Shown here one piece after another: positions 729-60,284 of a stretch of DNA of 64,000 bases. Source of the DNA: Candidatus Tepidiaquacellales bacterium OLB4/UTCHB1 (GTDB lineage Bacteria; Bacteroidota; Ignavibacteria; Tepidaquicellales; Tepidaquicellaceae). Location of the stretch: contig MWSW01000018.1 in the NCBI GenBank assembly GCA_002050165.1, positions 1-64,000 of the forward strand. Reading direction: 5' to 3'. The notes under the pieces are model-generated. The model was not told where the DNA came from. It saw nothing but the letters and a program-made list of their open reading frames with translations, and searched no databases. Made by a program: the position numbers and the translations under genes. The stretch's first letter is position 1. Each line of letters starts with the position of its first letter.

Positions 729-3700
729 TTATTTCGCTTTCCACCAAGCATTTTTCTTTTTTGAGTATTTGTATCCTGGAAGTTGAACCGAACTCCAAAA
801 TAATTTTTGCGATTCCCATTGTTTACCCGGGGTTTCGTTCCCAAATAAATCTGTTGTTGTTTCTGTTGTTTGGTTATTCGTTTTGTTTGCTCTTGGCTGT
901 CTTGGTGGATTAGTATTTCGTCTTGCTTGCCTTCTCTGCAAGTCACCAAGAGTTTTGGTTCTTATATCAGCAGTAAAGTCGCAGTCAGGATAACCTGAAC
1001 ATCCATAAAAGGATTTGCCGTAATGAGTCTTCGGACGGATAAAGTTTGTTCCACACTTTGGACAAGTTTCACCATTCAAGTTCGGACTGTAAAGCAATTC
1101 TTCTAAATCAAATCTTTGAAACAGTTCTTTCACTGTATTCTCTCCCTCAAACCGTTTCATGTATTCTTTTCGATTGTTGTGGCTTAAAATATTTAAGCTG
1201 CCTGACCATTCTATTTTTCTGTCAATGATTGCAATTTTCTCGTGCATCCCATCACGAAACTTTACAGTGATATTCATTGCTTTCAATTTTGTAACAACTT
1301 CTTTTGCACCTTGTAATTGAAGTCGGTCATTTGGAGATAATGTAATCACGGAAATTCTTATTCCTTTTGAAATCAACTGTGAGAACTTCAAGTGAAGTTT
1401 TCCTAATCTGTCTGCTGTGAGATAAGGTGAGAAAATTATCAGTTCTAAACTTGCTTTGGCTAAATCATTATGAAAGGTAACCCAAAAATCTTGGTCGTCA
1501 TAATTTGAACCGATGTTCTCTGGTCTTACTTCAAGCGAATTGAGTTTGGTAATCCAATACTCAAAATTCTCATCACGCAAATCCGCAATGATTTCAGTTG
1601 ACTTTGTTTCTTTTCCTTTTGCAATGATGTGCCGCAATACATCCATGAAAAGAGAATTGCTCTCAAAGGTATTTTTGATGTAATTGCAGTTAGCAACTAC
1701 AAACAATTTAGTTTCTGCTCTGGTCAATGCAACATTTAAAAGAAGTTTTGCGCTTTCAGTGTTGTTGTATTCGTTAATCATTGACCACTTTTTTGCTCCT
1801 TCACCTTCAACGCTGTCAAAGATTATTGCAGTTTCTTCTCCTCCTTGAAAACTATGAACCGTGTTGATACGAATTTTTGTGTTCTTCAAAATTCCTTTGT
1901 CCTCTGCAATTTTCAGAATGAGCCGTGCCTGACTTCTGTATGGAGTTATTATTCCGATTGATTCATTTTGCCCGAATGACTTAGAAATTTTTTCTGCAAG
2001 TGAAACGCAAATCAAAGCACTTATCAAATTGAATCTACCGCCTTTTTCTAATTGACTGCACCAAGGATTATGAATAGAAGTGTCAATAAGGCAAACTGCT
2101 GAATTGCCCGAAACATTATCTGTTTTGCTTTTGCTTTTTACTGATTCATCGTCTTCAAGTCGGTTGTCATAAATTCTTTTGTTTACAATCTCCGAAATGT
2201 GAGGGTGCATTCTGTATTGTCTGTAAAGTGGCTGCACTCTTTGTTCCGCCCTACTTATTTCAGAAATGTGCAACTCATCAAAAATGCTTCTGCCTAACCA
2301 TTTCTTTGCAAGTTCATCATCGGCAACACAAATGGGTGGAAGTTGTTTGAAGTCGCCAACAATCGTAATTCCTTTTTTGATTTTTGAAGCTGCCCAATAA
2401 AGCATCGGCATTGGAGCCATACTCACCTCGTCAACAAGCAAAATGTCAAACTCAATGTTTTCAATCTCCTTTGCGATATACGATTTTGTCAGAGTTGTAG
2501 CAACCAACTTTGCATCTTTCAAAATCTGAACTTTGATTTCTTCAATGGCTTTGTTGATTTCATCTAACCTAACTTGAAGTTGCTTTACCTTGCTGTCAAA
2601 CTGGCTTTCTTCTTTTTGAACTTCCGAAAGATTTTTTCCGACTTTTGAAAGCTGTTTATTCAATTCTGCTTCCGCATTGCTCTTTGAAGTTTTAAACGTC
2701 TGTATACTTTGAATGAGTTGATTTAACTGCTCTTCAAGATTTTTAGTTTGATTGGTCTTGATTGATAGATTTGAATTGGCTGATTTGAGATTGGCTTCAA
2801 GTTTTATAGGGTCAAGTCCTAAGAAGGTTCGTTTTAAGAACCCTGCATCTTTTGCCTTGCCCAATTTATCTTGAAGCTCCGCAATCTGATTTTGAATTTG
2901 TGAAAGCTCATTCTTGGCTGAATTGATTTTTGCTTCAATGCTTCTGCCTTCCGTTGTTACCTTTTCAATTTGGGTTATTGTTCTCCCAACTTCAGCATTG
3001 AGAGAAATGATGTTATCGTAAGATTGTTTGGCGGTCTTAATCTTTTCAAGTTGCCGATTCAGTTCTTCTTTTTCTTTGACAAGTTCTTTTGATTTGAACT
3101 CGGCAATCTTATGAATCATTACAAGAGTGCAATCTTCCTTTTCATACTTGTCGCTCATTTCAGGTTTTGGAGTTCCTAACCTTACCAACTGCCCTTCTTT
3201 GTAGTAAGTTTTTTTCATCTGACCTGCCACTTTCAAAAGTGCTTGGTCAACTGCATTATTGGAATGTGATAACAGCAAGACTTTTCTGCCAATGTTTAAA
3301 TGACTTTCAATTGCTTTAGCAATCGTTTGGGTTTTGCCGGTTCCGGGCGGTCCCCAAATGATTGAAAGAAAATCATTGATGGAAGATTCAATTGCTTTGT
3401 GTTGAAATTGGTTGGGTTGGTCTTTGCCATTAAGTGAATAGGAAGTGTTGAAATTTCCACCGTCAATTTTGGAATTCTGGTCTTGAAATAATTTGTTGCT
3501 GTTTTCAAATCGACTTAATGTGCTTTGATTGTCCTCATATTTCTTTTTTAAGCGTTCAAGCAAATACCAAGTGTTCGTTTTGATTTTCGCAACAGGAATT
3601 CTCTCGGATAATTTTTGATTGATGGATAATTGAACTTGTTGTCCTGTTACAGAAATAATATTGCATTCGTATTCTTTTCCGTTTACTTCAATGTTCGCTG

Positions 3701-3875
3701 GCGTATCATCAAGCGTAATCAGAAAATTTTCAAGGGTGAATTGATAAATGAAAAGGTCAAGAGTTTGTCTTATGAGTTCTCCATTGTAAACCGTTACAAT
3801 GCTTCCGCCTTTCCCTTTTTTCAGAGCATCAATTTCTATCGCTAGAGCATCTATGAATTCTTTTACAATCGTCAT
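729..3875 (-). CDS. SF1 (Upf1-like) helicase fused to a PLD-type nuclease domain and topoisomerase zinc finger; Mokosh type II-like defence protein
   Basis: A 1048-residue protein. Walker A GPPGTGKT at 175-182 is followed by a long coiled-coil insertion at about 255-455, then VDEVS (481-485), QYRMHP (553-558), a TPYRSQ motif near 645, HSFQGGE (674-680) and NVALTRA (714-720): the AAA_11/AAA_12 helicase core of the Upf1/Dna2 group. Residues 790-905 form one phospholipase D-like unit with H878-x-K880 and a following SGSLN motif. A four-Cys topoisomerase-type zinc finger lies at 938-965, then a low-complexity tail. A helicase fused to a C-terminal PLD domain is the design of type II Mokosh anti-phage systems, so RNA/DNA-targeting defence is inferred. 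It stands alone between two related hairpins. A non-defence repair helicase is the main alternative. Confidence 0.8.
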   Translation of the reverse strand: MTIVKEFIDALAIEIDALKKGKGGSIVTVYNGELIRQTLDLFIYQFTLENFLITLDDTPANIEVNGKEYECNIISVTGQQVQLSINQKLSERIPVAKIKTNTWYLLERLKKKYEDNQSTLSRFENSNKLFQDQNSKIDGGNFNTSYSLNGKDQPNQFQHKAIESSINDFLSIIWGPPGTGKTQTIAKAIESHLNIGRKVLLLSHSNNAVDQALLKVAGQMKKTYYKEGQLVRLGTPKPEMSDKYEKEDCTLVMIHKIAEFKSKELVKEKEELNRQLEKIKTAKQSYDNIISLNAEVGRTITQIEKVTTEGRSIEAKINSAKNELSQIQNQIAELQDKLGKAKDAGFLKRTFLGLDPIKLEANLKSANSNLSIKTNQTKNLEEQLNQLIQSIQTFKTSKSNAEAELNKQLSKVGKNLSEVQKEESQFDSKVKQLQVRLDEINKAIEEIKVQILKDAKLVATTLTKSYIAKEIENIEFDILLVDEVSMAPMPMLYWAASKIKKGITIVGDFKQLPPICVADDELAKKWLGRSIFDELHISEISRAEQRVQPLYRQYRMHPHISEIVNKRIYDNRLEDDESVKSKSKTDNVSGNSAVCLIDTSIHNPWCSQLEKGGRFNLISALICVSLAEKISKSFGQNESIGIITPYRSQARLILKIAEDKGILKNTKIRINTVHSFQGGEETAIIFDSVEGEGAKKWSMINEYNNTESAKLLLNVALTRAETKLFVVANCNYIKNTFESNSLFMDVLRHIIAKGKETKSTEIIADLRDENFEYWITKLNSLEVRPENIGSNYDDQDFWVTFHNDLAKASLELIIFSPYLTADRLGKLHLKFSQLISKGIRISVITLSPNDRLQLQGAKEVVTKLKAMNITVKFRDGMHEKIAIIDRKIEWSGSLNILSHNNRKEYMKRFEGENTVKELFQRFDLEELLYSPNLNGETCPKCGTNFIRPKTHYGKSFYGCSGYPDCDFTADIRTKTLGDLQRRQARRNTNPPRQPRANKTNNQTTETTTDLFGNETPGKQWESQKLFWSSVQLPGYKYSKKKNAWWKAK

Positions 3876-3906
3876 ATCTCAAATGTAACGGTCTTTGTGC
3901 TGTGGG

Positions 3907-3974
3907 GCAAAGGCAAATGTGAAGCAACTGAAGCGTTGGCTTGTGCGGTTGCGTTGCTTCTCTTTTGCTTTTGC
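3907..3974. repeat. Imperfect inverted repeat upstream of the helicase gene
   Basis: Arms 3907-3928 and 3953-3974 match at 19 of 22 positions. The left arm shares GCAAAGGCAAATGTGA with the right arm of the hairpin at 636-702, so the two hairpins flank the helicase gene as inverted relatives of each other. Only 31 bases separate it from the helicase start codon, so it may also act on transcription or translation of that gene. There is no coding evidence across it. Confidence 0.6.
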
Positions 3975-4061
3975 GAAGAATAGCAAACACGGCTTTGCCG
4001 AAATTGTTCTGTCGTTCATTTCTTGCAGTCAGGTTAATGTTAGCACTGTCGCCAAAGGGTT

Positions 4062-4198
4062 GCCGACAACGGTTCGGGGCTTGGCGAAGGTGGCGGATTT
4101 AGAAGCACAAACTTTCAATTTAGCACTACCGTTTTTTAGAAGCACTACCGTTCAATTTAGCACTGCCCCCGCCATTACGCAAAACCGCTGTTGGCTGC
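4062..4198. repeat. attC-like imperfect palindrome between helicase and restriction-modification modules
   Basis: The outer arms 4062-4096 and 4165-4198 pair imperfectly: GACAACGGTT with AACCGCTGTT, and the GGTGGCGG and CCCCGCC blocks. The right end carries GTTGGCT (4190-4196), similar to the GTTRRRY core of integron attC sites. Inside are two copies of CAATTTAGCACT (4116-4127 and 4153-4164). The last codons of the methyltransferase gene (stop at 4126-4128) run into this element. It is attC-like in position and shape only; the cores do not match the consensus exactly. Confidence 0.6.
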
Positions 4199-5046
4199 TG
4201 AGCTTCTTCTAATTCCGCATAGTATTCGTCTGTCGGTTCTTCTACAACAAATAATGTCGGTGCGTCTGCAATTAGTTTCACTCGTTTTCTTGCGATTTCG
4301 CAGTATTCGTGGCTTATGTCAATCCCGATATATTGTCTGCCCATTTCGCAAGCTACTCTTGCTGTTGTCCCGCTACCACTCATTGGGTCAAAAACTAAGT
4401 CGCCTTGATTTGTCCAAGATTTTATGTGGTCTCTTACAAGTTCACAAGGGAAAGGTGCTGGGTGTCCTTTTGCTTCTTGGTCTTCTTGTTTTTTGCCGAC
4501 AACATATTCCCAAATGTTTCCTTTTATTTTTTTGTCTTTAACTGGCTTTGCTAACTTTTCTCTTGTCTGCTCGTTCTTTGAAAAGTTTTTGTAAGTCGTT
4601 CCGTTTAGTTCAAGTCCTGCGTGTAAACAGTCAACCATAATAGGGTTGTGTGTTTTTACAACGCCTTTGCTGAAAACAAACATAAACTCAAACTCATTGT
4701 TATAGCGTTTGCGATAAATTTGGGGAATTGGGTTTGCCTTACGAAATATCATTGTGTCGTGAAGATTGAAACCAATTTGTTGAAAGTATAGGGCTTGTTT
4801 AAAACTTGTTCCTGTTTCGTTGCCGTTAATTGTTGCATCATTAACAACCCAAACAACTATGCCACCTTCTTTTGTAACTCTGTAAAGTTCCTTTGCAATA
4901 TCTTCAAAAGGGAAAACAAACCCTTTGTAGTTTCTCAAATCGTCATAAGGTGGCGAAGTAACTGTAAGGTCAATTACATTGTCGTCAAACTGTCGCATTA
5001 CTTCTACGCAGTTACCTTCGATTATTTTATTTATAAAATTCTCCAT
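4126..5046 (-). CDS. Beta-class DNA methyltransferase of a HindIII-type restriction-modification pair
   Basis: A 306-residue protein. The catalytic TSPPYDD motif is at 30-36 and the S-adenosylmethionine-binding DPMSGSGTT motif at 220-228, the order of beta-class amino-methyltransferases that make N6-adenine or N4-cytosine. The start codon is 6 bases from the stop of the endonuclease gene at 5053-5967, so the pair is co-transcribed with the endonuclease first. Its job is to protect host DNA. If the partner keeps HindIII specificity the target would be AAGCTT, methylated on adenine. The last 20 or so residues (after about 286) are encoded by the attC-like repeat and probably are not part of the conserved fold. 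Confidence 0.9.
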   Translation of the reverse strand: MENFINKIIEGNCVEVMRQFDDNVIDLTVTSPPYDDLRNYKGFVFPFEDIAKELYRVTKEGGIVVWVVNDATINGNETGTSFKQALYFQQIGFNLHDTMIFRKANPIPQIYRKRYNNEFEFMFVFSKGVVKTHNPIMVDCLHAGLELNGTTYKNFSKNEQTREKLAKPVKDKKIKGNIWEYVVGKKQEDQEAKGHPAPFPCELVRDHIKSWTNQGDLVFDPMSGSGTTARVACEMGRQYIGIDISHEYCEIARKRVKLIADAPTLFVVEEPTDEYYAELEEAQQPTAVLRNGGGSAKLNGSASKKR

Positions 5047-5052
5047 TGTCGT

Positions 5053-5967
5053 TTATTTAAGTGTAAATAGTCCGTTATCGGAAATTGCACTGATAGTTTT
5101 AATTCTGCTTTCAATCTTGTGAACTTTGATAAGTTCTTTCAACGCTTCTTTGTGGCTCATTCGCATTATCTTTTCTCTTTCTTGTGCTAAGAATGTCAGG
5201 GCTTCTTCTTTGGAAATAGCGATACTTTCAGTTGCAACGCCTTTCTCTATACTCCACAAAGGTTCTACTGCTTTTGAAAAAGAAAGAATTGTTTTGTTGA
5301 TTGCTAACCAATAGTCGGTTGCATTTTTAGAAGGATTGAGAGCCTTAACCGTTTCAAATATTTTCTTCAAAAGCTGTTGAGCTTTTGCTTGTCCTTCTTT
5401 TTCAGAGTAGGAAAGTAGCAATGCAAGGTGTGAGTATGTGAAAACGCAAACATTTTGTGTCGTTGCTTGCTGGTAAATTTGGCTTGAAGAAGTTGGAAGC
5501 TGATAAATCGGGCAAACCACCATTGCATAAGGTTTGCCACGTTTCCAACCGTGCATTGCTTGAACTTTAAAGTCCTTTTGATTTTTTGCTGTCCTGCTTA
5601 GTCGGAACGCTTTTGCATCTGCAACAAAACTGTAATCTTTTGCAAATGCTTCAACGTCTGCTGCATCTGCTCTCTCTTTAAGCACCAAACTTTTTAGACC
5701 TAATGCTGTGTAAGCTAATGAAAGTAAACAGTCGGTGTATTTTGAATACAGTTTTTCTTCGCTTGTGTCGTGTCCGTAACTTTCAGGAATATTTCCGCAA
5801 AGTCGCAAATGGTCAATTAATGAGGAACCACCGTTTTTCTTGATTTCGGCTTCTAGTTCCTTTTCTAATTTGTCTGTGTCGTTACCGAAATTGCCACTCA
5901 GCTTTCGGATTTCTTCAATCCAATACTGTCTTGTTTTTATTGCCTTAGCTGATATTATTTTACTCAT
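5053..5967 (-). CDS. HindIII-family type II restriction endonuclease
   Basis: A 304-residue protein, close to the 300 residues of HindIII. From memory of the HindIII sequence, the block VADAKAFRLSRTAKNQKDF at residues 115-133 is almost identical to the HindIII active-site region; D117 and K119 are the likely metal-binding and catalytic residues. Other matching parts are the segment after EEKLYSK (70s) and the QIYQQ region. It is the upstream gene of a two-gene operon with the methyltransferase. Cleavage at AAGCTT is inferred from the family, not shown. No frameshift or missing catalytic residue is seen, so it is probably active. I see no separate controller gene. Confidence 0.9.
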   Translation of the reverse strand: MSKIISAKAIKTRQYWIEEIRKLSGNFGNDTDKLEKELEAEIKKNGGSSLIDHLRLCGNIPESYGHDTSEEKLYSKYTDCLLSLAYTALGLKSLVLKERADAADVEAFAKDYSFVADAKAFRLSRTAKNQKDFKVQAMHGWKRGKPYAMVVCPIYQLPTSSSQIYQQATTQNVCVFTYSHLALLLSYSEKEGQAKAQQLLKKIFETVKALNPSKNATDYWLAINKTILSFSKAVEPLWSIEKGVATESIAISKEEALTFLAQEREKIMRMSHKEALKELIKVHKIESRIKTISAISDNGLFTLK

Positions 5968-12080: not shown

Positions 12081-14039
12081 TTACTTAACGAGAACCATTC
12101 GTTTGACGGTCGAAAATTCCCCAACGGTAAGCGAGTAAAAGTAAACTCCGCTCGGAAATCCGGAAGCATCCCAGGTGAAAGTGTAACTACCCGCGTTAAT
12201 TGGATTATTTAGCGGTACTGCAATTTCCATTCCCGCTGAATTGAAGATTTTGATAGTAACTTTCCTGCCGGTGAGTGATTGAGGAATTTCAAAATTTATA
12301 TTTGTGACCGGATTAAACGGGTTAGGGAAATTTTGAGATAACCAAAGTCCGTCAGGTAAGGTGTTCCCCTGAGCATTAATTACAAGCGGTATTAACGAAC
12401 TGCCACCGATACCGTCGCGTTTGTAATTGCCTTTAAAGGTACTCCAAATTTTAATTGAGTCATACACACCCGGAGTATCCCAGATATAAACTTTTCTATC
12501 GTTACAACCAGCAATTAATTCGTTATCACCGTCGCCGTCAATATCAGCGATAGTAGGAGAAGTTTCAAATGCATTGAGCGTAGTAGCTTCGGGGTCGAGT
12601 GGAAAACCATTAGCCAGAATTCCGGATCCGGTGAAACCATACATTTTACCCTGGTTTGTTCCGCCGATTATATCCGGTAGCGAGTCACCGTCCATATCGC
12701 CCATAGCTGTTGCACCGTCAACCCATGTTGCATATACGGGTTGCGGAAATCCGTTAATCAAATTGCCTTGTCTGTCGAACACAACTATTTTCCCGAGGCT
12801 AACCGCCTCAACAGTTCCAAACCCAAATTCAGGCTGACCATCGCCGTTCATATCGGCAATTGAAACGTTTGCAAACGGATGACCCGCAGGAACTTCAAAC
12901 GGGAATGGTGAAATTAAATTAGCGTTATAATCGAACGCATAGATTCCGTTAATCTGGTTCGGATGGCTTTCTATTTTAACCCTTATTATTACGTCTAGTT
13001 TTCCGTCACCGGTAATATCGTAAAGCGAAGGTGTTCCGCCAACGGCGTAGGGTCCGGCGATTACAGGCCAACCGGATTTTACTTCACCCATATCGTTGTA
13101 ACATAAAATCCGTCCCTCGTAGCTTGATGCATTATCGTAACCGGTACCTACTATAATTTCATATCTACCGTCATTATCAATGTCAGCTATTACCGGTGAA
13201 GATTCAGAGCCTTTGGTGTAACCAATCGGGAAATTTGGGTAGTTAACTACGTTTGAACCGTTAAACTTCAGTATGTGAAGTTTTGCGTCCATGTCAGTAT
13301 CACGGTCGCGGGATGTGATAATGATTTCATCTTTGCCGTCGCCGTCGAGGTCTTTTAGTGCCGGAGCGGAATGTTCGTTCAGTCCGCCGGTATTATACGG
13401 AAAGCCGGTCATCATTGAGCCGTCAAATTTGTGCGCAAAAATGTTTCCGTTTTCATCAGCGTGGACGACCTCAAGTTGCCCGTCGCCGTCAAGATCACCA
13501 ATCGCTGAAATTTCCATTGCGCCGCTGTTTTGGAGCGTTCCGAACGGAATAGCGTAAGGAAATCCCGGGACGAAAGCACCGGTATATTTCCAAAGGTACA
13601 ATTCCGGTTGATTCGTAGAGAATCCCGCAGTTACGGAGACTTCAAGTTTACCGTCGCCGTTCATATCTGCCGAAGTCGGCGATGATTTGTACAAAGGCCA
13701 ACCGGTGCTAACCTGTCGCGGCCAACCGAATTGATATGGCAGGACTAAATCCGAAGGCTCCGGCACTGGCGCAGTGTAGTGCTGTATTGATAATATCCTG
13801 AATCCCGCAACCTGTAAGCGCGATAGTTGTTCAGGTGTGCAGATTACCGTAATATTTCCGTTTTCAGTGTTATACGAATATTTACCTTCTCTTATTTTTT
13901 TTACATCATCGAAGGCGGAAATAAATGGTTCCAACTGCGCAATATCGGAAGTACTGTTAATCTTTATTTGAACGTAAATGTCAAATGAGTAAGAGTTGCC
14001 AAAGGTTAAAAGTAAAATTATGGTTAAAATGGTTTTCAT
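12081..14039 (-). CDS. Secreted FG-GAP/VCBS repeat protein with type IX secretion C-terminal sorting domain
   Basis: A 652-residue protein: signal peptide (about 1-18), a small N-terminal domain, then eight calcium-binding repeats of the form DxDGDGxxE/D (for example DMNGDGKLEV, DLDGDGQLEV, DIDNDGRYEI, DIDGDGDNEL), as in integrin-like beta-propellers, from about 110 to 540. The C-terminal 85 residues start with SQNFPNPFNP and end SGVYFYSLTVGEFSTVKRMVLVK-like strands; this is the type A sorting domain recognised by the type IX secretion system. The protein is probably surface-attached or released, with a binding rather than catalytic role. It implies a working type IX system elsewhere in the genome. 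Confidence 0.9.
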   Translation of the reverse strand: MKTILTIILLLTFGNSYSFDIYVQIKINSTSDIAQLEPFISAFDDVKKIREGKYSYNTENGNITVICTPEQLSRLQVAGFRILSIQHYTAPVPEPSDLVLPYQFGWPRQVSTGWPLYKSSPTSADMNGDGKLEVSVTAGFSTNQPELYLWKYTGAFVPGFPYAIPFGTLQNSGAMEISAIGDLDGDGQLEVVHADENGNIFAHKFDGSMMTGFPYNTGGLNEHSAPALKDLDGDGKDEIIITSRDRDTDMDAKLHILKFNGSNVVNYPNFPIGYTKGSESSPVIADIDNDGRYEIIVGTGYDNASSYEGRILCYNDMGEVKSGWPVIAGPYAVGGTPSLYDITGDGKLDVIIRVKIESHPNQINGIYAFDYNANLISPFPFEVPAGHPFANVSIADMNGDGQPEFGFGTVEAVSLGKIVVFDRQGNLINGFPQPVYATWVDGATAMGDMDGDSLPDIIGGTNQGKMYGFTGSGILANGFPLDPEATTLNAFETSPTIADIDGDGDNELIAGCNDRKVYIWDTPGVYDSIKIWSTFKGNYKRDGIGGSSLIPLVINAQGNTLPDGLWLSQNFPNPFNPVTNINFEIPQSLTGRKVTIKIFNSAGMEIAVPLNNPINAGSYTFTWDASGFPSGVYFYSLTVGEFSTVKRMVLVK

Positions 14040-43867: not shown

Positions 43868-45124
43868 ATGATGAGAACGATTATTAAAAGCATCATTTTT
43901 TTCGTTATTGCAACGAGCATTCTGCGCGCTCAGACAGACGAATTTGAACCAGGGTCACCTTACACTATTTTTGGTGTAGGTGAATTGAATTACAGCAATA
44001 GTTTAAGGACACGTTCGATGGGAATAAATGGCATCGGACTTTCAGGTGATTACGTAAATTCATTGAACCCCGCAGCGAATTACGATATGAGTTATACCAG
44101 AATTTCTCTAAACGGGAAATATTCATTTTATAAATATTCCGATGCGACTTCTACCGGACAAGACTCGGACGGTAAAGTTGATGGTTTAAATATAGGTATT
44201 CCAATCAGCAACGAAAAAGGAATTTCACTGTTTCTTGGATTTAACCGGCTTAGTTCAGTTGGTTATCAGATTACCCAAATTGAACAAAACACTTCCGGAA
44301 ATGAAACGAGGTTTTATTCCGGGAAAGGCGGACTTTCAAAAATCAATGTTGGACTTACGTACAAGCTGGCAAATTCAGTTGTGCTCGGAGCTGAGTACAA
44401 TTACGCATTTGGAAATATAATAGATTCAAAAAAGATTGATTTCGGATTGCAAGGTGTGACCAATACAGATATAAGAAAGGAGATTGACCTTCAGAACTCG
44501 TATTTCAAAGGTGGCGCGATAATAGAAATCGGGAACCTGGTAAAGTCAAAACTCCTGAAAGATCTGAAGATTGGTTTTTATTATCAGACAAAGATTAATT
44601 TCAACTCAGCCGGCGATGCGATTTACACAACCAGCACATCAACTGATACTGTTAGAATTACCGGTGAGCCTCTGGAATTTCCTGCTTCGTTCGGTTTTGG
44701 CATAAGCAATAAATTCGGTAACAGATACATCGTTTCCGCTGATTTATTGATGCACAATTGGGAGAATTTTCAGAGCACTAAAATCACAGTTGCAAAGTAT
44801 GAGAACTCATACCAGCTTGGTCTGGGGCTTGAGATATTGCCTCTAAGTGAAAGCGATGTTTCGTATTGGAATAAACTAACTTACAGGATGGGTGTATTTT
44901 ACGGGAAGGAATATTATTCAGTCAACAATAACGATATTAATGTTCTTGGTGCTTCAACCGGAGTCAACATACCGTTAACCAATCAGAATTCAATTGACCT
45001 TGCGATTATGTACTTAATTCGCGGTAAGAATTCTGATGGCTTAATAAAAGATGAGAATTTATCGTTAGCGCTTGGTTTCAATTTTGGTGAACTCTGGTTT
45101 TTGAAACGGCAGGAAGAAAACTAA
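43868..45124 (+). CDS. Outer-membrane beta-barrel protein (PorV/FadL-like layout)
   Basis: A 418-residue protein with signal peptide (about 1-21, ending LRAQ). The start YTIFGVGELNYSNSLRTRSMGINGIGLSGDYVNSLNPA is typical of barrel proteins that carry a short plug, such as FadL and PorV, including the NPA turn. Amphipathic strands follow to the C-terminal LALGFNFGELWF. It is probably made together with the lipoprotein gene 2 bases upstream. No specific substrate is evident, and it is not certain to be the type IX component PorV. Confidence 0.72.
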   Translation: MMRTIIKSIIFFVIATSILRAQTDEFEPGSPYTIFGVGELNYSNSLRTRSMGINGIGLSGDYVNSLNPAANYDMSYTRISLNGKYSFYKYSDATSTGQDSDGKVDGLNIGIPISNEKGISLFLGFNRLSSVGYQITQIEQNTSGNETRFYSGKGGLSKINVGLTYKLANSVVLGAEYNYAFGNIIDSKKIDFGLQGVTNTDIRKEIDLQNSYFKGGAIIEIGNLVKSKLLKDLKIGFYYQTKINFNSAGDAIYTTSTSTDTVRITGEPLEFPASFGFGISNKFGNRYIVSADLLMHNWENFQSTKITVAKYENSYQLGLGLEILPLSESDVSYWNKLTYRMGVFYGKEYYSVNNNDINVLGASTGVNIPLTNQNSIDLAIMYLIRGKNSDGLIKDENLSLALGFNFGELWFLKRQEEN

Positions 45125-52905: not shown

Positions 52906-54291
52906 TTATTGCTCAACAAAGATATCACCAATCTTCCATCTCATATTTAAGAGGATTGTCAGCGCACCGAATTTACCATCATTTTTCGTACCTAATCTGA
53001 TAGACGGTCCGAAAGCAAAGGATGTATTTGCGAATCCTTGGGCAATATCCGAGATTAGTGTTTCAAACAATATTTGAAAGTTCCTCGTCGGGCTGCTAAC
53101 CATTGCGTTAATCCTAACGTCAAAGACGGAGTTTGCAAGTTTCATTTCTCTACCTGAAAATCCAACGTGCGTCTCACCCAGATATTTCGCAACGTAAACT
53201 TTTGCTCTGGTTGAACCAAATGTTCTGAATGGATACCTGAACTCCCAGTTAAAGTGATTCCCTTGAACGACCAGATTGGGCATGAAATCGTTCGGATCAC
53301 TTGTACCCTTGTTTCGAACCTGGACAGGTGGAGCTGCGTTTCCGGAATCAATTTCTGTAAAAAATCCGACTTCAAAGAAATTACCGAAAGGTATCACGTA
53401 ATTGAACTCAAGTGCAAAGTGGGGCAGGAAAATATTGTTGTAATCTGCAATCATCGGTGAATCATCTGAGCCGTTTGTAATGACGCCTGAACCTCTTTCG
53501 TGTGTAAACTCGAGAATTCTTGTAACTACTCCAATGGAAGCGCCCAGAAGGTGGAATTTTGCGCCAATAGCTTCAGATTCCATCGGGCCTGAATATTGAT
53601 TGCCGAGCCCAAACGACAACCCAAAATCGCTTTTAATCGGAAATCCAACATGTTCGCCACCGAAAACCTGAAAATATGGATTGATGTACGCGGTACCACT
53701 TCTAATTTCTCTGAATCGTTTCGGCGGAGCAATCGCATCTGATACCCTGATTTTTTTGATTACATCCGTGAAAACGGATGCAAAATTAGGCGCTGTCGGA
53801 TTAAGGTTCTCTTTAGCCGCGCCTGTAAAGTTTATCAGCCCCGATTGAACGCGATTAGATAACTGTCCCCAGCTTACAAGTTTAAGTGGGTTATCTTCGG
53901 AACCAATAAATGCAATTTCATTTCCCGGGTTTCTTAAATCAACAGTAATGAAGTAACTTCCCAACTTCGGACTTATCTCCATATCATCCTGAACCCAAAT
54001 AAACAAGCTATCATTTTCAACGCTCGCCGCTATCCTGAAATATTTCCAGGTTCTGGGGTCGTCATCAACCTGTTCGCCGGTAATAGTGAGTATCTTACCG
54101 TTGCTACCTATTGGACCATCATCAGTAATCTGTTCATCAGTTAAAAGCTCAGGTACATCTTTAATTGTATCCTCAGGTGTTGATGTAGAAATCTCAGGAA
54201 TGTCATCACTTTGTGAAACTACAAATGACGGCAGTACAACCAAGAATGCAATCACAATAACAATTCTAAAGACGTAAGATTTAAATTTCAT
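52906..54291 (-). CDS. Exported outer-membrane barrel protein, third gene of a motor-like set
   Basis: A 461-residue protein: signal peptide (about 1-26, FVVSQ), an Asp/Glu/Thr-rich linker (27-60), a beta-sandwich-like domain (about 65-170, with WKYFRIAASVENDSLFIWVQDD), then a barrel-like part of amphipathic strands ending MRWKIGDIFVEQ. No family is recognised. It follows the GldM-like gene by 67 bases on the same strand, with a hairpin in between (54321-54341). It could be the outer-membrane element driven by the two membrane proteins upstream; this is inference from gene order. Confidence 0.6.
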   Translation of the reverse strand: MKFKSYVFRIVIVIAFLVVLPSFVVSQSDDIPEISTSTPEDTIKDVPELLTDEQITDDGPIGSNGKILTITGEQVDDDPRTWKYFRIAASVENDSLFIWVQDDMEISPKLGSYFITVDLRNPGNEIAFIGSEDNPLKLVSWGQLSNRVQSGLINFTGAAKENLNPTAPNFASVFTDVIKKIRVSDAIAPPKRFREIRSGTAYINPYFQVFGGEHVGFPIKSDFGLSFGLGNQYSGPMESEAIGAKFHLLGASIGVVTRILEFTHERGSGVITNGSDDSPMIADYNNIFLPHFALEFNYVIPFGNFFEVGFFTEIDSGNAAPPVQVRNKGTSDPNDFMPNLVVQGNHFNWEFRYPFRTFGSTRAKVYVAKYLGETHVGFSGREMKLANSVFDVRINAMVSSPTRNFQILFETLISDIAQGFANTSFAFGPSIRLGTKNDGKFGALTILLNMRWKIGDIFVEQ

Positions 54292-54310
54292 TTTGTATTA
54301 ATTTAGTTGA

Positions 54311-54341
54311 TTAAAACATAGCCCTGCATTCTCAGCAGGGC
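54311..54341 (-). terminator. Hairpin between GldM-like gene and barrel gene, partial terminator
   Basis: GCCCTGC / GCAGGGC pair (54321-54341) around ATTCTCA. On the minus strand it is followed by TATGTTTTAA, a weak T-tract, so it may attenuate and not fully stop transcription into 52906-54291. Confidence 0.5.
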
Positions 54342-54358
54342 GTATTATTAAAGAAGAG

Positions 54359-55285
54359 TTAATATTCACTGAATACAAACGAACCCCCGTTGGAAACAGT
54401 TTTACCGGAAACTTTGTCCTTGACGTTTACACTGAAATTTATTCTATAAGGTGGTTCCTGATTTCCGTATATCTGGTCAAATTGTGATTCCGAGCCAATC
54501 GTTTGGTTAAGTTTTATATCGAGAACTTTGCCACTTTGAGTAACTGAGACCGGACCGGTTACACTGATCTGTAATTGACCCGGAAAATCATCCTCGACCG
54601 TGACCCTGAAACCTGTTACTCTTGTCAATGACCTATACGATCCGACGTCAGCAACTTTTTGCACTATTATTCTCGGATTATCGTTTGGTTTAAGGGATAC
54701 AGTTTTTGTCGAACTACCGACTCTAATTGTTACCGAACTTTGACCACCGGTAGTGAATGTTTTTGTACTTTTTGGTGGTATTGTAGTTATACCGACAATT
54801 TCAAGCGGTAAATCGTAAGGGTTATTTAAAGTGTTCTGAGTATATTGAGTCAGTTCTATACTACCAATCCGAATATCTGTAACCTCCGATGGTTCTTTGG
54901 GGATTTCTTCCTTTTTTTCTTCGGGAATTTCCTCTTGTTGAACTTGGGGAGTTACAGTTGGATTTGTTTGATTAACAGTTAAACTCATTTTTTGAGTGAT
55001 CTGCGAGAGTTGCATTTGAGTTTGCTGCAACTTCTGCCTGAGTTCTTCTGGATTTGAAAATTTCAGTGTTGTGTCAATGTCTATTTTCGGAACAAGTCCT
55101 AACGCTATGAGTGAATCAAGGTATTTTTTAAGAGAATCTGCATACTCTCTCTCAACTACAGTTTCTTTTTCAATAACTTCCTCAAGGTCCAGATTGGCGC
55201 CTTTGAGTGCGATGACACAAATCACAAAAATATAGAGTACCTGATATATGACGAACTTTACGTCTCTGTCTTTATTTCCTGCCAT
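54359..55285 (-). CDS. GldM/PorM-like membrane-anchored periplasmic protein
   Basis: A 308-residue protein. Residues 1-30 form a short cytoplasmic start (MAGNKDRD) and one membrane helix (about 11-29), followed by ALKGANLDLEEVIEK, which resembles the start of GldM (ALNxSxExL). A helical region (35-110) leads to a Pro/Glu-rich linker (115-137) and then two beta-rich Ig-like domains (about 140-308), also the GldM layout. In type IX secretion GldM and GldL form a proton-driven rotor. The upstream gene is a likely partner. It is shorter than GldM (about 510 residues), so this is a relative and not a confident orthologue. Confidence 0.55.
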   Translation of the reverse strand: MAGNKDRDVKFVIYQVLYIFVICVIALKGANLDLEEVIEKETVVEREYADSLKKYLDSLIALGLVPKIDIDTTLKFSNPEELRQKLQQTQMQLSQITQKMSLTVNQTNPTVTPQVQQEEIPEEKKEEIPKEPSEVTDIRIGSIELTQYTQNTLNNPYDLPLEIVGITTIPPKSTKTFTTGGQSSVTIRVGSSTKTVSLKPNDNPRIIVQKVADVGSYRSLTRVTGFRVTVEDDFPGQLQISVTGPVSVTQSGKVLDIKLNQTIGSESQFDQIYGNQEPPYRINFSVNVKDKVSGKTVSNGGSFVFSEY

Positions 55286-55303
55286 AGCTTTTGATTTTAA
55301 AGT

Positions 55304-56515
55304 TTACTGCCTCTTGCCGGCGAGGTATGCAAGATTATCAAGTCCTTTTATAGCAGAGGAATCGTTCAGATTTTTAATCGTCTCCCCGATAAAATGTGCC
55401 GTAACCTGCAACTCTTTCAGAACTTTTTCTTCCGGAAGTTTTACATTGTTTATCTCTGTTACTATTTGCCTTACACTATTCATATTATCCTTAATAGTAG
55501 CTGAATAATCAGATGACTTTTGAACGGTTGTTACAACGTTGGTCATAGTGTCAGCCACGTGTTTGAAATCTTCCATAAGCTGGTGATCAACAAGTTTCAC
55601 TTTACTTAGTTCATCAGCAGCATTCCGGAATTTAATGAGATTCTGAGTGAACTTTTCGTTGAGCTCTTCGGTAGTTTTCACAACATTATAAATCATATCG
55701 AGCTGTTCTTTTGATAGATTCGGTCCACCTTGACCCTGAATTGCAGCGAAAGTTTTTTTCGTGATTTCTTTTAAATCGCTTGCGATATGTTTAAGCTCTG
55801 ATTTTCCTTGTTGTGCAAAGTATTCTCTCTCTACCTTGCTCACCTCATGCTGAATTTCCTGATATTTTACCGCCTGTGCGCTGAAAACAGATTCGAAAAG
55901 TTTTGCAATTGCGAGTATAACGATTGCTTTAATTTCGAATGGAACAGAAAAGCCGAGGAAAATTGTCGGTCCTTCTTTAATTGAAACAAGCAGAATGGCA
56001 GCACCTAAAAGCGGTAATGCGGTCCCGATTCCATCAACAACCCCGCTGTATTTGTCAATTATTCTGTCTATACTGTTTTCGGATGCACCTTTTTGCAGAA
56101 TTTCCTTTTTTAAAGCGCTATTGCACAGGTAAGCGTTTAAAACGAAAATAATATAAAACAAAAATGGCATCCACCAGAACTGAATAGGTACAACGCCTTG
56201 ATTGAGGAGGCTTACACCCGGGAAAATCCAACTTGCAATGTTCTTTGCCACCTCTCCAAATATTGGTACAGCGCTGATGTCAATAAAAATTGAAAGTATT
56301 AGCAAGATTAACGAAGGAATCATTGCACGGAGTGTTATTCCCGTCAGCTGACCTTCGATTTCCTTCATCTTGTTTTGGACCACATAATTCTTGATCTCGC
56401 TAATCTCATTGTTCAACTTAAGAAGGTTTTCTATCCTTTCTTCCATTGAACCATTTGAAGAATTGTTTCCCCCCTGTCCGGTTTCGTTGTACGAGATTTG
56501 AGTGTTCTCTGTCAT
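55304..56515 (-). CDS. Four-helix inner-membrane protein with MotA/ExbB/GldL-like traits
   Basis: A 403-residue protein. Four membrane helices at about 62-82, 111-132, 158-179 and 190-212; helix 3 holds GTALPLLGAAILL, like the APxLGLLGT stretch of TolQ/ExbB/MotA, and helix 4 carries KLFESVF. A long helical cytoplasmic tail follows (215-403), as in GldL. The GldM-like gene begins 18 bases downstream. A two-protein ion-driven motor is inferred. No polar residues beyond Glu208 are seen in the core helices that would prove ion conduction. Confidence 0.5.
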   Translation of the reverse strand: MTENTQISYNETGQGGNNSSNGSMEERIENLLKLNNEISEIKNYVVQNKMKEIEGQLTGITLRAMIPSLILLILSIFIDISAVPIFGEVAKNIASWIFPGVSLLNQGVVPIQFWWMPFLFYIIFVLNAYLCNSALKKEILQKGASENSIDRIIDKYSGVVDGIGTALPLLGAAILLVSIKEGPTIFLGFSVPFEIKAIVILAIAKLFESVFSAQAVKYQEIQHEVSKVEREYFAQQGKSELKHIASDLKEITKKTFAAIQGQGGPNLSKEQLDMIYNVVKTTEELNEKFTQNLIKFRNAADELSKVKLVDHQLMEDFKHVADTMTNVVTTVQKSSDYSATIKDNMNSVRQIVTEINNVKLPEEKVLKELQVTAHFIGETIKNLNDSSAIKGLDNLAYLAGKRQ

Positions 56516-57822: not shown

Positions 57823-58617
57823 TTAGTTTGATTTCTTTTCAGTGCTTTCTTTCTTTTCAGTACTCTCGGTTTTCGTTGTCTTTTTAATTCTGTTTTTAGT
57901 TTTGGTGTTTCTCCAGTAAACTCTCTTCTTCAAATAGTCTTTCTTTTGAGCATCAGTGAGAGTAGGAACTTTCAGAACCTGACCGGGATAAATCAAGTTA
58001 GGATTCGGAATAGTTTTAGGAATTCTCGGAGGAGCACTTACAACACCGCTCTTGTTGGCTTCCCAAAGTGCAGGCCATAATTTCGGGTTATTATAAATGT
58101 TGCTCTTTCCGGAAATTTTCCAGAGACAGTCCCCTTTAACAACGGTGTAGTTGTTTGTAGGTGCAGGACCCCATGCATCTAACTTTTTCTTCATTGCATT
58201 GAACCTGTCCCAGAATTCAGGGAGACACCTTATTTTAGAAGCCTCGATTTCTGCAAAGGTTTTTTCTGCATCTTCTTTTGAACCGGACTTTGAGTTGATT
58301 TTCTTCTCTAAGTCGTTAAACTTGGTTCTGAAGTCAGCTACCTGAGATTTCGTTGCTCCAACAGAAGCGTAAAGATCGTTCTCGGCTTTTTCTAGTTCGT
58401 TATCTTTCTGCGCTGAACTCTTCCTTAATCCGTCAATGTCGGAATTAAGAGAATTGAGCGTCGAGGTTAAATCATTTTTCCTGACAGTTAACTCATCCAT
58501 TTGCATTTGCCATTCTTCTTCAGTCATTTCTTCTTCGTCCTGAGCAAATACGGAAGAACCTGCAACAACTGTCAAGGAGAAGGCGAGCATTAAAGCAAAT
58601 AATTTATTGAATTTCAT
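57823..58617 (-). CDS. Exported coiled-coil LysM protein, copy 1
   Basis: A 264-residue protein: signal peptide (about 1-25, ending VFAQ), an acidic helical coiled-coil region (27-150), then a LysM domain (about 156-215: YTVVKGDCLWKISG...LIYPGQVLKVP) for binding peptidoglycan, and a basic Lys/Thr/Glu tail. Residues 1-165 are identical to copy 2 (59175-59960); later residues differ (for example WKISGKSNIYNN against SKIAGMSKIYGN). It has a good ribosome site (AAAGGAGAATC). It pairs with the small lipoprotein gene 57 bases upstream; both probably tether envelope layers. Confidence 0.85.
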   Translation of the reverse strand: MKFNKLFALMLAFSLTVVAGSSVFAQDEEEMTEEEWQMQMDELTVRKNDLTSTLNSLNSDIDGLRKSSAQKDNELEKAENDLYASVGATKSQVADFRTKFNDLEKKINSKSGSKEDAEKTFAEIEASKIRCLPEFWDRFNAMKKKLDAWGPAPTNNYTVVKGDCLWKISGKSNIYNNPKLWPALWEANKSGVVSAPPRIPKTIPNPNLIYPGQVLKVPTLTDAQKKDYLKKRVYWRNTKTKNRIKKTTKTESTEKKESTEKKSN

Positions 58618-58890
58618 TTTTTAGGATTCTCCTTTTAAAATTTGTTTTTAAATTAACTTTAGCTGATTGTGAGATTACGGACATCTCTTTTTAACAGCAT
58701 CAATGTCATTGAGATACTGCCTGATCTTTGCATCTTTATCTGCAACTTGTCTTTCAAGCTGTGATTTTTCGTTTTGTTTTGCATTGACCTGAGACTGCAA
58801 TGACTCAACTTCAGCTTTCAAATCGTTAAGCTGTTGCATTTGTTCTTCGCTTACTCCACCGCCGCATCCGACTAAAAATGTAGAGCCTGC
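57961..58890. repeat. Tandem duplication, copy 1 (930 bp)
   Basis: This block recurs at 59304-60233 (same strand, offset 1,343 bp, no gaps). The part from about 58117 on is nearly identical; a short patch in the LysM region (about 58050-58115) has diverged. Flanking signal-peptide and tail regions differ between copies. Confidence 0.9.
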
Positions 58891-58941
58891 AAATAGAACG
58901 GTCATGAGTAATGCCATGAACATGTTTTTGGACTTTGCCAT
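58675..58941 (-). CDS. Small coiled-coil lipoprotein, copy 1
   Basis: An 88-residue protein from ATG 58941: signal peptide with lipobox LVGC (Cys 26), a Gly-rich start and one long helix of leucine/glutamine heptads (about 31-80, coiled coil), ending KKRCP. The pattern recalls Lpp/Braun-type lipoproteins, so it likely forms a helical trimer between outer membrane and peptidoglycan. The strong ribosome binding site CCAGGAGG is present. The mature sequence is identical to copy 2, while the signal peptides differ. The penultimate Cys could make a disulfide. Confidence 0.85.
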   Translation of the reverse strand: MAKSKNMFMALLMTVLFAGSTFLVGCGGGVSEEQMQQLNDLKAEVESLQSQVNAKQNEKSQLERQVADKDAKIRQYLNDIDAVKKRCP

Positions 58942-59121
58942 TTGAATACCTCCTGGTTTTTGGCTTTTAGTTTTTAAAATGTTGGTGTATTTAATACAAT
59001 ACAAATTTAGGATTATCTAATTTGGTAGTCAAGTCTATTCTCAAAAAGTGGACAATGTTTTATGTTAAATTTTCGTTAATTAACCTGGATTCATTTATAG
59101 TGTATAAAAAATAGGACAAAA

Positions 59122-59149
59122 AAAACCTCCGTTTGAATGCGGAGGTTTT
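59122..59149 (-). terminator. Rho-independent terminator of the second LysM module
   Basis: On the minus strand AAAACCTCCG pairs with CGGAGGTTTT around an eight-base loop, then eight T. It ends the transcript of the 59175-60284 pair. Confidence 0.85.
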
Positions 59150-59174
59150 CCAAAAATGTAATACTTTTAAATTC

Positions 59175-59960
59175 TTAATTTGTTGTTTCGGTTTTCTTAG
59201 GTGTTTCAGTCTTCTTCATCCTTTTAGTTTTGACAGTCCCTCGTTTCCAGTTTCTCCAGTTAACTTTTTTCTTCAGGGTTTCCTCTTTTTGTTGTGAAGT
59301 GAGAGTAGGAACTTTCAGAACCTGACCGGGATAAATCAAGTTAGGATTCGGAATAGTTTTAGGAATTCTCGGAGGAGCACTTACAACACCGCCCTTGTTG
59401 GCTTCCCAAAGTGCAGGCCATAATTTCATATTACCGTAAATTTTGCTCATACCAGCAATTTTTGATAAGCAGTCCCCTTTAACAACAGTGTAGTTGTTTG
59501 TAGGTGCAGGACCCCATGCATCTAACTTTTTCTTCATTGCATTGAACCTGTCCCAGAATTCAGGGAGACACCTTATTTTAGAAGCTTCGATTTCTGCAAA
59601 GGTTTTTTCTGCATCTTCTTTTGAACCGGACTTCGAGTTGATTTTCTTCTCTAAGTCGTTAAACTTGGTTCTGAAGTCAGCTACCTGAGATTTCGTTGCT
59701 CCAACAGAAGCGTAAAGATCGTTCTCGGCTTTTTCTAGTTCGTTATCTTTCTGCGCTGAACTCTTCCTTAATCCGTCAATGTCGGAATTAAGAGAATTGA
59801 GCGTCGAGGTTAAATCGTTTTTCCTGACAGTTAACTCATCCATTTGCATTTGCCATTCTTCTTCAGTCATTTCTTCTTCGTCCTGAGCAAATACAGAAGA
59901 ACCTGCAACAACTGTCAAGGAGAAAGCGAGCATTAAAGCAAATAATTTATTGAATTTCAT
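59175..59960 (-). CDS. Exported coiled-coil LysM protein, copy 2
   Basis: A 261-residue paralogue of 57823-58617. The first 165 residues, including signal peptide and coiled coil, are identical; from the LysM loop on the sequences drift (SKIAGMSKIYGNMKLW), then rejoin at GVVSAPPRIPKTI and IYPGQVLKVPTL, and differ again in the basic tail. Such a mosaic suggests recent duplication with gene conversion of the N-terminal part. The LysM domain should bind peptidoglycan. It follows the lipoprotein copy 2 by 57 bases. Confidence 0.85.
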   Translation of the reverse strand: MKFNKLFALMLAFSLTVVAGSSVFAQDEEEMTEEEWQMQMDELTVRKNDLTSTLNSLNSDIDGLRKSSAQKDNELEKAENDLYASVGATKSQVADFRTKFNDLEKKINSKSGSKEDAEKTFAEIEASKIRCLPEFWDRFNAMKKKLDAWGPAPTNNYTVVKGDCLSKIAGMSKIYGNMKLWPALWEANKGGVVSAPPRIPKTIPNPNLIYPGQVLKVPTLTSQQKEETLKKKVNWRNWKRGTVKTKRMKKTETPKKTETTN

Positions 59961-60233
59961 TTTTTAGGATTCTCCTTTTAAAATTTGTTTTTAAATTAAC
60001 TTTAGCTGATTGTGAGATTACGGACATCTCTTTTTAACAGCATCAATGTCATTGAGATACTGCCTGATCTTTGCATCTTTATCTGCAACTTGTCTTTCAA
60101 GCTGTGATTTTTCGTTTTGTTTTGCATTGACCTGAGACTGCAATGACTCAACTTCAGCTTTCAAATCGTTAAGCTGTTGCATTTGTTCTTCGCTTACTCC
60201 ACCGCCGCATCCGACCAAAAATGTAGAGCCTGC
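59304..60233. repeat. Tandem duplication, copy 2 (930 bp)
   Basis: Second copy of the block at 57961-58890, in the same order and orientation (lipoprotein then LysM gene on the minus strand). Differences are few and clustered in the LysM loop. Confidence 0.9.
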
Positions 60234-60284
60234 GAGCATTAGAGCCATAAATAACGCGAGTGAAACGGACTTCAAATTTTTCAT
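60018..60284 (-). CDS. Small coiled-coil lipoprotein, copy 2
   Basis: An 88-residue protein from ATG 60284. The signal peptide (MKNLKSVSLALFMALM) differs from copy 1, but from LAGSTFLVGC/FAGSTFLVGC on the lipobox and the whole mature helix are identical to copy 1. RBS AAAGGAG precedes it. It opens the second module; the LysM gene copy 2 follows. Either copy is the ancestral one; nothing in sequence decides. Confidence 0.85.
   Translation of the reverse strand: MKNLKSVSLALFMALMLAGSTFLVGCGGGVSEEQMQQLNDLKAEVESLQSQVNAKQNEKSQLERQVADKDAKIRQYLNDIDAVKKRCP

Follow-up and report, generated by a model that had tools for sequence, protein, structure and literature searches.

The first 64,000 nucleotides of contig MWSW01000018.1, from the genome of Candidatus Tepidiaquacellales bacterium OLB4/UTCHB1 (this whole stretch is hereafter the window), contain three genes, here named c3, c1 and c4, that raise the question of whether they encode an ion-driven motor of the cell envelope and, if so, of what kind. 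All three are read in the same direction (minus strand, from position 56515 to 52906) and each of them starts with ATG. The original prediction saw in them a possible new motor related to GldL and GldM. On balance, we favour the reading that c3, c1 and c4 act together as a single ion-driven machine spanning the envelope, and that they represent a new family probably working like the known 5:2 envelope motors, GldLM-like in action and without demonstrable kinship to GldL and GldM. The motor part of the prediction gained support from the MotA-like topology of c3, the conserved core and an invariant glutamate in the fourth transmembrane helix (TM4) of c3, while the descent from GldL and GldM found no support in sequence.

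The three-gene unit and its predicted proteins

The gene unit, its conservation and the predicted anatomy of the three proteins (Table 1) form the solid part of the analysis. By scanning the contigs of named genomes (loci are labelled L and genomes G; G000 is the host genome and f18 another family of the same class) we recovered 64 loci that encode a c3 relative, titled mostly Ignavibacteria, Ignavibacteriae, Ignavibacteriaceae, Melioribacteraceae or Bacteroidetes bacterium. At 48 of them c3, c1 and c4 are consecutive, in the same order and on one strand, a recurrence beyond chance that bears out the layout first proposed for 52906-56515, where all three open reading frames (ORFs) were found and c3 and c1 are spaced by 18 bases. 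The 48 include three loci in which c1 and c4 are separated by a gap of ~1.6 kb (L230, L231, L233) and two in which c1 is split (L192, L232); as for the remaining 16, 14 end within the cassette, L223 has no adjacent c4, and in L229 the c3 gene, which had looked like a truncated copy, is interrupted by a gap of 100 N. In much of the host family the cassette is flanked by what we take to be phoH-, LysM- and guaA-like genes (in the window the gene next upstream of c3 is, judging by its sequence, presumably the phoH-like one), in the sister family by nuoD and nuoE, and in the four f18 loci examined by others. Since the flanks differ between lineages, the conserved unit consists of c3, c1 and c4.

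A protein search recovered c3 in 41 of 59 relatives, all of the host's own family and order, and in none of the 15 same-class genomes of other families. Across the phylum, a profile of the c3 core matched nine of 296 genomes (three of the host order, five of family f18 and a weak one with an internal stop), while a further profile (A9), based on 38 of 70 c3 cores after removal of L229 and of rows more than 85% identical, matched 55 of 294 class genomes, 53 of them strongly (E 1.6e-38 or better). These strong matches cover 41 of the 44 genomes of the host order vs 12 of the 250 class genomes outside it. The c4 profile matched 56 of the 294 class genomes, among them all 53 with a strong c3; c4 was found without c3 in G002, G038 and G494 (a fragment in the last). 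Four matches to c3 were set aside: the weak one in G224 (E 0.009, stop inside) was taken as chance, those of A9 in G114 (E 0.006) and G265 (E 1.8e-4) were treated as chance or undecided and excluded from the 53, and the second match of the first c3 search (G000:C4:67731, E 5e-4) was rejected as the tail of a protein that looks Mce-type by sequence.

Hydropathy delineated four hydrophobic clusters in c3 and one N-terminal transmembrane helix in c1. The two proteins were modelled with AlphaFold2 at 1:1, joined into one artificial read-through chain (87 sequences; mean predicted local distance difference test score, pLDDT, 71.8; predicted TM-score, pTM, 0.43), in which blocks of residues 111-220 have pLDDT values of 82-96 and blocks of the c1 transmembrane helix values of 47-66. 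In this model, TM1 of c3 lies within a helix of residues 21-77, which is followed by a short helix (84-97), TM2 (within 115-141), TM3 (within 146-181) and a helix (183-261) that comprises TM4 and a stalk continuing into the cytoplasm; the coiled tail after it is of low confidence. The expectation that the first protein would have four helices, one of them with the motif LPLLGA, and a long cytoplasmic tail agrees with both hydropathy and model, LPLLGA being located in TM3. Besides its helix, c1 is predicted to have two beta-sandwich domains, the second of which resembled protocadherin immunoglobulin (Ig)-like domains in a structure search (e.g., Z 8.9, root-mean-square deviation 2.7, 94 residues). 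What had been said of this protein holds for the single helix and the periplasmic Ig-like domains, whereas its description as GldM-like was made by eye and the sequence tests given below do not support it. As foreseen, c4 is predicted to be an outer-membrane barrel, preceded by a small alpha/beta domain, c4N (AlphaFold2, 48 sequences, pLDDT 81.1, pTM 0.63); its structure search returned generic barrel-like matches only, none with E <0.001.

Variants of the unit are informative about how its parts may be connected. Four loci (L042, L043, L044, L050) encode a short c3 (158-236 amino acids) and a short c1 (125-140 amino acids), then two further proteins and c4. In L047, the periplasmic part of c1 is split, one protein holding the transmembrane helix with Ig1 and the next (L047_11) joining c4N to Ig2, a fusion that ties the putative shaft c1 to the barrel protein c4. 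A divergent cassette (L167:8921-14507) has a gene for a VWA/OmpA-domain protein just upstream of c3. The c4N domain was also found in other proteins and as small stand-alone proteins (L156:8591-8974, L157:8384-8797, L158:8707-9066), some of which have, by eye, a lipoprotein-like N-terminus.

Table 1. Coordinates in the window of c3, c1, c4 and their predicted parts
Feature	Position	Strand	Description	Basis
c3	55304..56515	minus	403 amino acids; inner-membrane protein of four helices plus a long coiled tail in the cytoplasm; putative motor ring subunit	ORF, hydropathy, model
c3 TM3-TM4, residues 157-213	55877..56047	minus	25/30 invariants of residues 60-261, including T165, P168, E194, K196, K205	alignment
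c3 residues 214-403, stalk and coiled tail in the cytoplasm	55307..55876	minus	poorly conserved; mostly absent from short variants	model, alignment
c1	54359..55285	minus	308 amino acids; single-TM periplasmic protein; putative central shaft	ORF, hydropathy, model, structure search
c1 residues 1-34, N-terminus (cytoplasmic) with TM helix	55184..55285	minus	12/18 c1 invariants; motif D-x-K-F-x6-Y	alignment
c1 Ig-like domains in the periplasm: 1 (residues 138-203), 2 (residues 204-308)	54362..54874	minus		model, structure search
c4	52906..54291	minus	461 amino acids; predicted beta-barrel protein of the outer membrane, periplasmic domain at its N-terminus	ORF, model
c4N domain, residues 78-166	53794..54060	minus	mobile domain; in one split variant joined to c1 Ig2-type domain	
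c4 beta-barrel, residues 195-458	52918..53709	minus		model

Conservation of the membrane core: motor or tether

Sequence conservation was assessed in an alignment (A7) of c3 rows longer than 300 and c1 rows longer than 280 amino acids, from which L201 (cut by a contig end) was excluded, leaving 57 c3 and 46 c1 rows; for mean column conservation, rows more than 80% identical were removed (33 c3 and 29 c1 rows left). In c3 the means amount to 0.80 for TM3, 0.77 for TM4, 0.63 for TM1, 0.56 for TM2 and 0.41 for stalk and tail, and in c1 to 0.79 for residues 1-34 and 0.43-0.59 for the remainder, so the strongest conservation falls at the presumed motor core, i.e. TM3/TM4 of c3 and the membrane helix of c1. 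Invariant in all 57 c3 rows are E194, K196 and K205 (all within the modelled TM4 helix), together with P168, G171 and A172 of LPLLGA; D8, K10 and Y18 are invariant in all 46 c1 rows. Each of the nine additional c3 sequences checked, short and divergent ones included, has the motif P-x-E-[IV]-K-x8-K, which is kept even in the c3 of G511, which is only 27% identical to that of the window over the core.

This pattern is consistent with a motor. The modelled helices of c3 fit a MotA-type topology, with TM4 continuing into a cytoplasmic stalk, and, as in the 5:2 motors, an invariant ionisable residue (here E194, K196 and K205) is found in the presumed membrane core, within the modelled TM4 helix. 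Residues 11-27 of c1 include no acidic residue. As the c1 helix is devoid of them and TM4 of c3 has an invariant glutamate, the ionisable group appears to be placed in a GldLM-like manner (the essential glutamate of GldL, E49, is in an inner helix of the ring subunit; PMC8986121). This placement leads us to infer that c3 forms a ring around the c1 helices, that ions pass at E194 and that the Ig-like domains transfer force to c4. In such a machine, c3 would oligomerise in the inner membrane, its TM3 and TM4 lining a pore occupied by the membrane helices of c1; ions (probably protons) would flow via E194, with assistance from c3 residues K196 and K205 and c1 residues K10/Y18, and this flow would move c1 relative to c3. 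Across the periplasm, the resulting force may be transmitted by the Ig-like domains of c1 to c4, the barrel protein of the outer membrane, c4N being the likely docking module.

The same three proteins could instead compose a static trans-envelope tether or scaffold (c3 as anchor, c1 as periplasmic rod, c4 as barrel), which we hold to be possible but rather improbable. Its attraction lies in the long coiled tail and the Ig-like rod, in the LysM and Lpp-like genes found near the cassette in much of the host family, and in the occurrence of c4N outside c4, in small stand-alone and other proteins. The invariant charged residues within the modelled TM4, however, are not easily explained by a tether, it is TM3/TM4 and the c1 helix, rather than the periplasmic domains, that are most conserved, and neither LysM nor Lpp relatives stand beside the cassette in the two sister-family and four f18 loci examined.

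In the window, the LysM and Lpp-like genes lie beyond the gene upstream of c3 (57823-60284, minus strand), as two tandem copies of a pair made up of a LysM protein and a small Lpp-like lipoprotein. The copies have an identical stretch of 290 bases in common, and their LysM genes agree at 700 of 786 ungapped positions.

Several findings weigh against a motor made of c3, c1 and c4. One of the 64 loci (L223) has c3-c1 with no c4 adjoining, and solo paralogues of c4 exist, with no c3 or c1 match in the stretch read (20 stretches were fetched, most around c4 matches and not around every match). The trio has no significant similarity to known motor families: searches of c3, c1 and c4 against Pfam, NCBIfam, PHROGs and PADLOC gave at most weak, scattered matches far below cut-offs, and a search of PDB sequences (queried with c3, c1, the c3 profile and the GldL profile) gave no convincing match to c3, c1 or the c3 profile. 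Foldseek and VIA searches with the c3-c1 model gave no motor for c3, a result uninformative for helices; they mostly matched the Ig-like part of c1, and the top match was a ciliary protein of very low TM-score. The homology of c3 and c1 to GldL, GldM or ExbB is not significant, and two points taken up below, the chance of divergent GldLMN genes in the host class and the genomes that have SprA without c3, pull in the same direction.

The solo c4 paralogues were found at L150:8897-10162, L152:9069-10238, L153, L154 and L155, and the one in L152 adjoins Wzc-like and polysaccharide-export-like genes.

Possible kinship with GldL and GldM, and a possible role in type IX secretion

GldL (TIGR03513) and GldM (TIGR03517) each scored over the cut-off in 70 of 296 phylum genomes and GldN (TIGR03523) in 64 of 277. 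The host's class contributed no genome to these counts; weak matches below cut-off number seven there for GldL, one for GldM and two for GldN. Against the host genome, the three profiles gave no match at E 0.01; the proposed check for true gldL and gldM elsewhere in this genome accordingly detected none by TIGR03513 and TIGR03517, though SprA is present. For the absence of GldL and GldM we rely on these two profiles, since both do match outside this class within the phylum. PF22827 (GldL_N) had no match in the host genome or the 59 relatives, nor had PF12080 (GldM_4th) in the host genome, their controls also being without match. The Gld profiles are not exhaustive, as clear gldL-gldM neighbours elsewhere in the phylum score below cut-off or escape, and G164 has no GldN match though a gldN-like gene is present by eye. 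Because the profiles miss or under-score divergent genes, the host class may yet hold divergent GldLMN.

Shortened, divergent gldL and gldM genes (GldM of 380-399 amino acids) were seen at four loci of two other phylum families (L092, L093, L094, L095), next to genes that are gldN- and gldK-like by eye; these genes are below the TIGR cut-offs or missed by them.

Could c3 and c1 be true, highly diverged descendants of GldL and GldM? The order of the genes (ring, shaft, outer-membrane side) is common to both sets, and the best hhalign alignments, chosen as the best of several sub-ranges, place E194 of c3 on E49 of GldL (inner helix pair; P 0.098, reversed control 0.2) and Y18 of c1 on Y17 of GldM (P 0.034, reversed control 0.64), neither of them significantly. 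If the latter alignment were extended without a gap, K10 of c1 would fall on R9 of GldM, and [R/K]-x7-Y is present in all 11 GldM N-termini as K-x7-Y is in all 46 of c1. With the whole c3 core, however, the reversed control (P 0.15) does better than the real profile (0.29), TIGR03513 and TIGR03517 give no match, and c3 has two extra helices. A score matrix made from the helices of 11 GldM failed to distinguish c1 from a decoy set of 392 unrelated membrane helices at N-termini: 171 of these decoys score as high as the c1 median or higher, and c1 itself scores best in another register. Since the matrix ranks c1 no higher than decoys, we do not call c1 GldM-like in sequence, and, given the non-significant alignments, the one better reversed control and the decoy test without advantage for c1, c3 and c1 are not filed as GldL and GldM. 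GldL vs ExbB, which are expected structural analogues, also fails in profile-profile comparison, so that this approach lacks power here. Altogether, we regard descent from GldL and GldM as unlikely.

If c3-c1-c4 is a motor, the process that it might power deserves attention, and type IX secretion presents itself. SprA is encoded by 58 of the 59 relatives and by 43 of the 44 genomes of the host order, in the host genome as a protein of 2197 amino acids (TIGR04189, E 7.9e-275), and the window holds (12081-14039, minus strand) a gene for a 652-amino-acid protein with a C-terminal type A sorting domain (TIGR04183, 33.8 bits, cut-off 23); a TIGR04183-type sorting-domain protein is also encoded by a related genome, G025. 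The SprA translocon and a sorting-domain cargo both appear to be present in the host genome, and no GldL, GldM or GldN was detected there. For the motor missing from this set, the trio suggests itself as a candidate. The TXSScan model of the system uses GldL/GldM/GldN components, and with it type IX secretion was reported only in Bacteroidetes (PMC4793230). That the trio powers type IX secretion seems to us a tentative proposal, and we are slightly more reserved still about its stricter form, in which the trio would be an independently evolved ion-driven motor that energises SprA in this Ignavibacteria order in place of GldKLMN.

The distribution within the host order speaks for such a role (c3 in 41 and SprA in 43 of the 44 genomes), as do PorV/PorQ-like genes near the cassette at 13 of the 64 loci (recognised by a short motif; two were checked and are over the PorV-family cut-off). 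The PorV-like genes are, however, confined to L206-L226 and may for this reason be plain synteny of close relatives. The proposal is further weakened by the different contigs on which the cassette and SprA lie (C6, C12), by a genome with c3 and no SprA match (G042), by the scarcity of strong c3 in the class outside the host order (12/250) and by the Gld profiles themselves, which miss divergent genes and gave the ten weak same-class matches below cut-off. It also counts against a secretion motor, and against a motor in general, that SprA is present and c3 was not found in each of the 15 genomes of the class that belong to other families; therefore, either another motor operates there or the trio does something else. 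The suggested comparison of genomes with and without type IX secretion was run and proved uninformative within the class, as 58 of 59 relatives, these 15 among them, have SprA.

We found no paper joining Ignavibacteria, GldL and type IX secretion in a literature search whose scope left out preprints and most subscription papers; judged by title and the start of the abstract, none of the four papers that it gave on Ignavibacteria and type IX secretion is about motors. If the trio does energise SprA as an independently evolved motor, the same translocon would be coupled to unrelated motors in different lineages. Class relatives keep SprA, some of them with sorting-domain proteins, and no GldL, GldM or GldN was detected in them over cut-off; the question of their power source thus has a testable candidate in one order.

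Two further features of the window lie apart from the cassette. A BamG-family outer-membrane protein is encoded at 43868-45124 (plus strand; NF053685, 252.7 bits, cut-off 250), and at 729-5967 (minus strand) an IGHMBP2-like helicase, a CcrM-like DNA methyltransferase (all assignments below cut-off) and a 304-amino-acid protein of unknown kind stand in a row, possibly as a restriction or defence unit.

Comparison with known motors

The known ion-driven envelope motors make up a short list (MotAB, ExbBD, TolQR, AglRQS, GldLM, ZorAB), and adding a family whose ring subunit carries the acidic residue would help in distinguishing the essential parts of the mechanism. We consider it very improbable that c3 and c1 simply belong to the MotA/TolQ/ExbB and MotB/TolR/ExbD family. 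Although the four-helix topology with a TM4 stalk is MotA-type and TM3 has an invariant threonine and proline, PF01618 is not one of the 12 families matched at E 0.1 by at least one of 38 c3 cores, and the sole PF01618 locus of the host genome (G000:C19) is separate from c3; there, a TolQ/ExbB-type gene is followed by an ExbD/TolR-type gene (by profile) and a second one (by motif). Moreover, the c1 helix is without the acidic residue that is defining for the family, the single transmembrane helix of MotB, ExbD and TolR requiring an aspartate (PMC12905483).

Compared with ZorAB of Zorya, c3 has in common a long cytoplasmic tail on the ring protein; in PADLOC, Zorya ZorAB included, c3, c1 and c4 had no match. 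MotAB consists of a four-helix ring protein, with cytoplasmic loop and tail, and a single-TM partner, an anatomy that recurs in c3 and c1. Unlike MotAB, c3 is without a PF01618 match, the c1 helix has no aspartate, c1 bears Ig-like instead of peptidoglycan-binding domains, and a gene for a predicted outer-membrane barrel partner is present. With ExbBD-TonB and TolQR-TolA the trio would have in common that an inner-membrane motor is coupled to outer-membrane partners (as proposed for c4), whereas c1 has no ExbD-type aspartate and the TolQ/ExbB-type gene of the host is at another locus.

From GldL, GldM and GldN, which serve type IX secretion and gliding in F. johnsoniae, the trio differs in the absence of a profile match and of demonstrable homology for c3 and c1, in the four transmembrane helices of c3 (by hydropathy and model) vs two in GldL, in the length of c1 (308 vs 513 amino acids for the GldM of L088) and in c4, a predicted barrel; GldN is not known to be a barrel. 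The likeness lies in the arrangement: in both, adjacent ring and shaft genes are followed by a gene for the outer-membrane side, c1 has, like GldM, a single N-terminal transmembrane helix and periplasmic domains, and c3 has, like GldL, a long cytoplasmic tail (in most members), while its invariant glutamate in modelled TM4 may be comparable to the one that GldL has in an inner helix.

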